Below are positions 44,880-46,656 of a stretch of 64,000 nt of DNA, piece by piece (positions within the stretch are counted from its first letter, which is position 1; the number at the start of each line of letters is the position of its first letter). This stretch comes from Natrialbaceae archaeon AArc-T1-2. GTDB lineage: Archaea; Halobacteriota; Halobacteria; Halobacteriales; Natrialbaceae. Made by a program: the position numbers and the translations under genes. Under the pieces are notes generated by a model that did not search any database, was not told where the DNA came from, and worked only from the letters and a program-made list of their open reading frames with translations. Where the stretch lies: the NCBI RefSeq assembly GCF_030273315.1, contig NZ_CP127174.1, positions 1,674,001 through 1,738,000 on the forward strand. Reading direction: 5' to 3'.

Positions 44880-45266
44880 TTATCGTGGCCGGAGCGTAAG
44901 CACCCGTTCGTCGGTCGTCTCGGAGATGCCGACTGCGGGTTCGACTGTGAGCCCGTTCTCGATCTCTTCGAGGTCGACGCCAGCGACCTGACCGGTCACG
45001 CGAACGGGGCCGAAGTCTGCGACCGCGGTCGCGTAGGGGGCGTCCTCTTCGAACGCCGGCGTCGGGACGTGCGTGATCGTGAACGTCTCGACCTCGCCGC
45101 CTGCCGGCAGCGGTCGTTGCTCGAGGTCGGTCGCGCCACAGTCCGGACAGACCCGGCGGGGCGGTAGGGAACCGTGTCCCTCGGGACACTCGAGGTAGTA
45201 CGGCTCGTCGTCCTCGAGGGCGTCGAGCCATTCGTCGAAGGCACCGTCTCGCGGTTCGTCGCTCAT
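44880..45266 (-). CDS. DUF35 OB-fold protein with zinc ribbon, thiolase partner
   Basis: A 128-residue protein of the DUF35/ChsH2 type: an N-terminal helix, a rubredoxin-like zinc ribbon (Y-L-E-C, then C-P-D-C-G-A) and an OB-fold (T-F-T-I-T-H-V-P, V-T-G-Q-V-A-G-V). In archaea these subunits bind acyl-CoA and bridge thiolase to HMG-CoA synthase. Its gene follows the thiolase gene. The normal ATGA overlap with thiolase is replaced by a chain of two 17-codon mini-ORFs caused by a 50-bp tandem repeat. Confidence 0.85.
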   Translation of the reverse strand: MSDEPRDGAFDEWLDALEDDEPYYLECPEGHGSLPPRRVCPDCGATDLEQRPLPAGGEVETFTITHVPTPAFEEDAPYATAVADFGPVRVTGQVAGVDLEEIENGLTVEPAVGISETTDERVLTLRPR

Positions 45267-45316
45267 GCGACCACCTCCAGAGCAAGCACTGGCGTAGTCG
45301 CTTTCACGTCGCTCAT
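45263..45316 (-). CDS. 17-codon mini-ORF, second copy
   Basis: Encodes MSDVKATTPVLALEVVA, identical to the preceding mini-ORF. Its ATG overlaps the stop of the first mini-ORF (ATGA) and its own stop overlaps the DUF35 start (ATGA). The end L-E-V-V-A is the thiolase C terminus and the start M-S-D is shared with DUF35. The peptide is therefore a by-product of the duplication rather than a family. Confidence 0.4.
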   Translation of the reverse strand: MSDVKATTPVLALEVVA

Positions 45317-45366
45317 GCGACCACCTCCAGAGCAAGCACTGGCGTAGTCGCTTTCACGTCGCTCAT
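45313..45366 (-). CDS. 17-codon mini-ORF, first copy
   Basis: Starts at the ATG that overlaps the thiolase stop (ATGA) and carries a GGAGGTGG ribosome site inside the thiolase end. Translation of the DUF35 gene by termination-reinitiation would have to pass through both mini-ORFs. Whether the peptide itself accumulates is unknown. Confidence 0.4.
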   Translation of the reverse strand: MSDVKATTPVLALEVVA

Positions 45367-46529
45367 GCGACCACCTCCAGTACGTGAACCGTCGCACTCG
45401 CGACCGTGCCACCCGCGTTGTGGGTGAGGCCGGTCGTCGCGTCGGACACGGCGTCGCTGTTGACGTGATCGCCACGCAGCAGCGACGCCATCTCGGCGAT
45501 CTGGGAGACGCCGGTCGCGCCGACGGGGTGGCCTTTCGCTTTGAGCCCGCCGGAGAGATTGACCGGCGTCTCGCCGTCGGCGGTCGTCCGCCCCGCTCGA
45601 GCCGCCGAGACCCCCTCGCCGACCGGCTCGAGCTCGAGCGCCTCGAGGGCGAGCACCTCGGCGATCGTAAAGCAGTCGTGGACCTCGGCGAGGTCGACGT
45701 CGCTCGCCTCGAGGCCGGCGTCTGCATAGGCCTCTTTACCTGCTTCGCGTGCAGCAGGCGAGCGGGCGAGGTGTTCGCGATCGTGCAAGGCGATATTGTC
45801 CCCGCCCTGGCCGGTACCGGTGATCGCGACCGGCGCGTCCAGGTCGTGGGCCTCGACGTAGGACTCGCTCGCGAGCACGACCGCCGCCGCCCCATCAGAG
45901 ATCGGACAGGAGTCGTACAGCCCGAGCGGCGAGGAGACCGGCGGCGCCTCGAGGACGTCTGCGACGTCGATCGCCTGCTGGTACTGGGCCTTCTCGTTCT
46001 CGAGGGCGTTCTCGTGATTCTTGACCGCGACGTGTGCGAGGTCCTCGCGGTCGCCGCCGAACCGTTCGAAGTACGCCTGAGCCATCAGCGCGTACGCGCC
46101 AGGGAAGGTCATCCCTGCGCGTACCTCCCAGAGATCGTCGGCGGCGATCGCGAGCGCCTCGGTCGCACCCGCGGTGCCGAGGTTCGTCATCCGTTCGGCA
46201 CCGCCGACGAGCAAGACGTCGTTCTCGCCGTTGCGGATGCGCATGGCCGCTTCACGGACGGCCGTCCCGCCGGAAGCACACGCCGACTCGTATCGCGTCG
46301 CCGGAGCCCGTACGCCTGCGGCTTCTGCCATCAGCGGCCCCTGGTGACCCTGGTGTTCGGACAGTTCGCCCATGAAGTTGCCGTAGAGAACGCCCTCGAC
46401 GTCCTCTCGGGGAACTCCGGAATCGTCGAACGCCTCGATGCTCGCCTCGCCGAAGAGGTCCCGGCCCGTCCGTTCGGCGAAACTGCCGAACGGCGTGAGA
46501 CCGACGCCGACGACTCGTACGTCACTCAT
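45363..46529 (-). CDS. Thiolase family protein (archaeal acetyl-CoA acetyltransferase type)
   Basis: A 388-residue thiolase. It has the acylated cysteine C84 in E-S-A-C-A-S-G-G, then the H-D-C-F-T loop with its catalytic His, and G-H-P-V-G-A-T-G. The active site is the Cys-His type with no malonyl-binding features. This SCP2-like branch pairs with DUF35 subunits in archaea and can condense two acetyl-CoA for the mevalonate route or act in acyl-CoA breakdown. No HMG-CoA synthase is next to it. ATG at 46529 gives M-S-D-V-R-V-V-G; an upstream start adds two residues. Confidence 0.9.
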   Translation of the reverse strand: MSDVRVVGVGLTPFGSFAERTGRDLFGEASIEAFDDSGVPREDVEGVLYGNFMGELSEHQGHQGPLMAEAAGVRAPATRYESACASGGTAVREAAMRIRNGENDVLLVGGAERMTNLGTAGATEALAIAADDLWEVRAGMTFPGAYALMAQAYFERFGGDREDLAHVAVKNHENALENEKAQYQQAIDVADVLEAPPVSSPLGLYDSCPISDGAAAVVLASESYVEAHDLDAPVAITGTGQGGDNIALHDREHLARSPAAREAGKEAYADAGLEASDVDLAEVHDCFTIAEVLALEALELEPVGEGVSAARAGRTTADGETPVNLSGGLKAKGHPVGATGVSQIAEMASLLRGDHVNSDAVSDATTGLTHNAGGTVASATVHVLEVVA

Positions 46530-46656
46530 ACACACCCACTATAGCGAACCGAGACGTTAATACCTCGCGGTTGGTACGCACGCCTTACGCGACGTTTCTC
46601 TCGGCCTACCATCTTCGTTCCCGGAGTTTATACGCCAAACGATCCCATTCGAGGAC

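Follow-up and report, generated by a model that had tools for sequence, protein, structure and literature searches.

Between a thiolase gene and a DUF35 gene on the minus strand of AArc-T1-2 lies a tandem repeat that contains a chain of short open reading frames (mini-ORFs), each overlapping the next by a stop-start codon pair. The question raised by this locus is what the repeated unit is and how the two genes stay coupled across it. The array probably consists of a small dispersed palindromic element, present in two head-to-tail copies, that would restore translational coupling at the site of its insertion. In this study, we set out the anatomy of the array, its counterparts in related genomes, and the alternatives to this reading.

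Anatomy of the thiolase/DUF35 junction

The window, i.e., the whole stretch of 64 kb that was analysed, was searched with Tandem Repeats Finder. The array at 45257-45380 (period 50, 2.5 copies, 100% matches, score 248) was the top-scoring one by a wide margin. These perfect matches, together with the recurrence of the repeat in other genomes, bear out the original prediction of a perfect tandem 50-bp duplication. The array consists of two identical 50-nt units and a remainder of 24 nt (CTGGAGGTGGTCGCATGAGCGACG), not the partial copy of 20 bases that had been described. Its total length of 124 bp is below ordinary read length.

The upstream gene is a thiolase (45363..46535, minus strand; Pfam Thiolase_N/Thiolase_C_1, NCBIfam NF004720). 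Its protein ends in ..VHVLEVVA, and its TGA stop codon (45365-45363) lies within an ATGA (45366-45363). The 3' end of the gene in the window is GGAGGTGGTCGCATGA, followed by the two identical 50-nt units. The native Shine-Dalgarno (SD) motif, GGAGGTG, is located in this 3' end (45372..45378, minus strand) and marks the insertion point, as judged from the sequence and from empty and filled leuC/leuD sites (see below). Unit 1 (GTCGCATGAGCGACGTGAAAGCGACTACGCCAGTGCTTGCTCTGGAGGTG; 45322..45371, minus strand), with 81.9 bits per unit in the covariance model R1, supplies the stop codon of thiolase, the start codon of a mini-ORF, two hairpins, and a new SD motif at its right end. Unit 2 (45272..45321, minus strand) is identical, by sequence and by Tandem Repeats Finder. 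Hairpin 1 of unit 1 (45347..45371, minus strand), assigned from covariation across species, pairs GUCGC of the thiolase end with GCGAC. Hairpin 2 (CCAG..CTGG; 45327..45342, minus strand), assigned from covariation in helices 3-4, is immediately 5' of the new SD motif.

Mini-ORF 1 (45313..45366) and mini-ORF 2 (45263..45316), both read from the ORF chain on the minus strand, encode the same 17 codons, MSDVKATTPVLALEVVA, and each has an ATGA overlap at either end. The SD motif that now stands 5' of the DUF35 start is at 45272..45278 (minus strand). The downstream gene (44880..45266, minus strand; Pfam PF01796) encodes a DUF35/Zn-ribbon OB-fold protein of 128 aa and starts with the ATG at 45266. 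On the minus strand, the order is hence thiolase-ATGA-17 codons-ATGA-17 codons-ATGA-DUF35, and the coupled chain had been read correctly from the sequence. The accompanying arithmetic (54 - 4 = 50) is also correct; whole units preserve the stop-start overlaps.

The AArc-T1-2 assembly comprises three contigs, and three thiolase-DUF35 operons were found in it. On contig C2, one copy of the window unit is present between thiolase and DUF35 (100% over 74 nt). This second operon, near 111238 of the 191-kb contig, has approximately 99% DNA identity to that of the window. The third operon carries a diverged 59-nt unit (80%); thus, the three paralogs have 1, 1, and 2 units. The C2 and window genes for thiolase and DUF35 differ at approximately 1% of sites, so the difference between one and two units arose after the two copies parted, by gain or loss. 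A recent change, as had been proposed for the duplication, is consistent with a single unit in this paralog and two identical units in the window.

Dispersal, insertion sites, and copy number

Most thiolase-DUF35 pairs in the family genomes overlap directly or nearly so and have no unit. The zero-unit state with one overlap, for which the original prediction had proposed a comparison with relatives, therefore exists. Among the family genomes, we examined 36 distinct unit-bearing thiolase-DUF35 junctions. In all 36, the mini-ORF chain that links the thiolase stop codon with the DUF35 start codon is intact and overlaps both neighbours, and every link is a stop-start overlap (-4 or -1) of the kind seen in termination-reinitiation. 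The links are ATGA or GTGA (4 nt) in 35 junctions; the remaining one has a final TGATG. These junctions contain 1, 2, or 5 units, some of which are fused into mini-ORFs that are 37 to 51 codons long.

A covariance model based on 29 units gave 66 matches of at least 59 bits in 37 of 125 family genomes, with 1-6 strong matches per genome; every inspected match was at a gene junction. Matches below approximately 50 bits were rejected as members; most of them were chance matches, the 3' ends of thiolase genes, or two-hairpin intergenic repeats of another kind. A pattern scan of 391 class genomes found 53 places in 33 genomes of several families, and the reversed pattern gave 0. The element is 50 or 59 nt long, with a stop/start at the left end, two hairpins, and GGAGGTG at the right end. 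The three class-wide matches that were first read after the frame rule (see below) had been formed all obey it and follow the same plan. An Rfam search of the array region yielded no family near threshold. In viral contigs, no true element was found; the two pattern matches were both unrelated coding sequence.

The same sequence occurs at approximately ten kinds of gene pair, as expected of a miniature inverted-repeat transposable element (MITE) or REP-like element. The junctions include thiolase/DUF35, etfB/etfA, leuC/leuD, HAD hydrolase/class II aldolase, a GFO/IDH/MocA pair, ABC ATPase/ABC-2 permease, and DUF58/transglutaminase (assigned with Pfam), as well as phnL/phnM (NCBIfam, with PhnL just under its cut-off). 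The unit is thus an inserted, dispersed element that is also present at unrelated operons, and not merely a duplicated local junction as originally supposed.

Clean empty sites were found at two of these junctions. At leuC/leuD within one genus, the empty site of G032 reads CTTCCGGAGGTG-ACGGTATGA and the filled site of G030 reads CTTCCGGAGGTG-[59 nt]-ACGGTATGA. The flanks are identical at 172/189 and 196/209 positions, the difference is exactly 59 nt, and the insertion point is directly 3' of the SD motif. At etfB/etfA, G030 and G032 carry the unit, and G029 and G033 have the empty site. With its left end, GTCGCATGA, the unit exchanges the C-terminal residues of the upstream protein for V-A (or V-E); among 103 empty thiolase genes, just 3 end in VVA. 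At the right end, GGAGGTG is present even at sites where the target SD motif is GGGGGTG, so this motif belongs to the unit. As a result, the insertion shows no simple target-site duplication that would prove transposition.

Across species and paralogs, 0, 1, 2, 3, or 5 units were counted, and repeat number varies at that level only. The Natribaculum plasmid paralog has one unit in N. luteum and two in N. longum and N. breve; G037 has 5 units, and G049 has 3 at another thiolase pair. The copy-number differences that had been foreseen are therefore real between species and between paralogs. They favour, as does the contrast between the window and its C2 paralog, a local duplication that serves as a copy-number rheostat, in which each additional mini-ORF would cost a fraction of the ribosomes and thereby lower DUF35 relative to thiolase. 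However, the unit is an insertion at unrelated operons, so its copy number need not be under selection, and reinitiation may be so efficient that one added step matters little. We regard a rheostat as unlikely, although it is compatible with a bridging element, as a side effect. The original likening of the array to a contingency locus is speculation, and the array can be explained with no appeal to tuning.

Several other repeats and bridging ORFs were observed. Two-hairpin, intergenic-looking repeats of a similar plan (a stem, a GAGCGAA..GAGCGA loop, a second hairpin, and GGTGG) occur approximately ten times per genome in genus g2; the two-hairpin repeats recorded are L199 1533-1612 (+), L201 1525-1604 (+), L202-L204, L197, L198, L304, L307-L310, and L312. 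They possibly represent a wider haloarchaeal family that includes the junction element. In scans of whole genomes, the hairpin-1 loop motif, GAGCGAACGNAGTGAGCG, is dispersed in many haloarchaea, with as many as 28 occurrences in a genome and none for the reversed control; in AArc-T1-2 it occurs once, in the third thiolase-DUF35 operon. At etfB/etfA of G031 (L270, minus strand, just 5' of etfA), an unrelated short ORF, ATGACTACC..CGATGA, overlaps at both ends and is a second, independent bridging mini-ORF. At leuC/leuD of G008 (L320, minus strand), a 36-codon bridging mini-ORF (MRSETPRVSDM..LEVRA) is formed by other palindromic sequence and has ATGA at both ends. The leuC/leuD loci L248 and L253 have palindrome-rich in-frame insertions at the LeuD N-terminus, recalling Rickettsia palindromic elements.

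Hairpins, reading frame, and a model for bridging

Hairpin 1 is formed by the end of the upstream gene and the inner strand of the unit, and hairpin 2 adjoins the new SD motif. Over both hairpins, 90% of cells are paired and 11 pairs have double changes; 54 cells are changed on both sides, compared with 16.5 in shuffles, in related sequences whose changes are not independent events. In helix 1 of hairpin 1, 5 pairs are changed on both sides. The hairpins may function at the RNA level, or in single-stranded DNA while the element moves.

The inner strand can also pair with the downstream SD motif and start codon, which raises the possibility of a cis-regulatory RNA attenuator in which translation of the mini-ORF gates DUF35. 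The two pairings are mutually exclusive and both covary above shuffles, and the minimum-free-energy folds differ from locus to locus. Nevertheless, the downstream pairing is clearly less well kept (69.7% of cells vs 87.1% for the upstream helix), and its surplus over shuffles may just reflect the near-identical sequence at the two ends of the unit. In addition, the element is patchily present within one genus, the functions of its junctions are unrelated, and hairpins would suit a mobile palindrome equally well. An attenuator is hence improbable.

In these related sequences, in which events are not independent, 45 of 46 distinct units are 2 mod 3 in length (50, 53, 59, or 65 nt). The sole exception, a 51-nt unit, adjoins a 59-nt unit, and 51+59 keeps the frame. 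Within the units, two phase classes were distinguished (34+20 and 35+19), in which a +1 shift left of ACGCC is offset by a -1 shift in the loop of hairpin 2. Depending on the species, the same DNA is thereby read as RVRQS or as TPxLA, with no change in total length. Judged from the sequences, these compensated shifts point to selection on an open bridge and not on the peptide. The spacing between SD motif and stop codon was considered as a further frame test and rejected as uninformative, because the thiolase ends at empty junctions keep the frame in any case (71 at 6 nt, 24 at 9 nt).

A genuine small protein gene between thiolase and DUF35 would account for an ORF that is always open and has a start codon and an SD motif. 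Yet the DNA is read in two frames according to species (RVRQSxALEV vs xxTPxxALEV) with compensating shifts, and it is therefore not the peptide that is conserved. Neither tandem copies nor an occurrence at unrelated operons would be expected of such a gene, and the frame has no annotation in N. luteum. A functional peptide is thus very improbable. An assembly artefact or chance can practically be dismissed, given an array of just 124 bp and a unit that recurs in many independent genomes in 1-5 copies.

The bridging element is proposed to work as follows. It lies directly behind a GGAGGTG in the 3' end of a gene whose stop codon overlaps the next start codon. At its left end, GTCGCATGA, the upstream gene gains a new stop, overlapped by a start codon (ATG or GTG) that is likewise new; an open mini-ORF, usually of 17 or 20 codons, then runs through the two hairpins; and a fresh GGAGGTG at the right end precedes the former gene tail with its native overlap of stop and start. 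A ribosome that ends thiolase could then restart on the mini-ORF, end there, and restart on DUF35, so that termination-reinitiation would survive an insertion otherwise fatal to coupling. More units can be added with the chain intact, since each one finishes with the insertion motif and is 2 mod 3 in length. We infer translation of the mini-ORFs, preserved coupling, and movement of the element by a transposition-like process.

In Haloferax, overlapping genes are strictly coupled, and an SD motif located in a 5'-UTR does not initiate translation de novo (PMC6728339). Reinitiation there is lost when the gap is 22 nt (PMC10666635), and coupling does not extend beyond approximately 20 nt; in E. 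coli, reinitiation needs no more than 15 nt of the upstream gene. By analogy with the gap sensitivity in Haloferax, a 50-nt insert with no bridging ORF should silence the downstream gene at the present loci, and the bridging ORF would be what makes such an insertion tolerable. In its stronger form, the proposal is of a mobile element with translational coupling as its niche, which targets the SD motif at overlapping genes, carries a stop-start-SD cassette whose length restores coupling, and enters and multiplies in essential operons almost free of cost. We consider the case for this stronger form evenly balanced. Against the bridging element in general stand its few copies per genome (1-6), and gene conversion or horizontal transfer of junctions may have spread it at individual sites.

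Significance and relation to known systems

If the bridging element is as proposed, it shows small selfish palindromes living inside tightly coupled operons. It would offer a natural series of 0 to 5 units for measuring archaeal reinitiation stepwise and a ready test of whether ribosomes really reach the next gene by way of mini-ORFs. It would also mean that annotation overlooks a class of translated mini-ORFs, e.g., the thiolase-DUF35 one in N. luteum. In a literature search confined to open-licence papers, no earlier description of such an element was found. Its parts are of known kinds; what we did not find described is their combination, an insert by which one gene is terminated, a mini-ORF begins, and both the SD motif and the overlap are re-established.

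The nearest functional parallel is termination-reinitiation in haloarchaea (PMC6728339, PMC10666635; Huber et al., 2019, 2023), which shares the ATGA/GTGA overlaps and the SD motif inside the upstream gene. In the Haloferax pairs, the downstream gene strictly depends on the upstream one (PMC6728339); at the present loci, such dependence is predicted from the sequence. Known cases link one native gene straight to another, whereas the inserted unit interposes one or more mini-ORFs between them.

Rickettsia palindromic elements (RPEs; Ogata et al., 2000, 2002), as far as they are described in PMC10969869, are likewise small dispersed palindromes within coding sequence, in frame. According to the same description, RPEs are approximately 150 bp and lengthen one protein, whereas the 50/59-nt element at a stop-start overlap ends a protein and opens a separate mini-ORF. 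The unit introduces both a stop codon and a new start codon, and no single longer protein results from its insertion.

With REP/REPIN sequences and other MITEs, the element shares the form of a short, hairpin-bearing, dispersed sequence with no gene of its own (PMC3733652, PMC10969869). REPs are mostly intergenic, usually of high copy number, and marked by GTAG or CGTC tags (PMC3733652, PMC10969869); in contrast, the present element is specific to gene junctions, has only 1-6 strong matches per genome, and ends in GGAGGTG.
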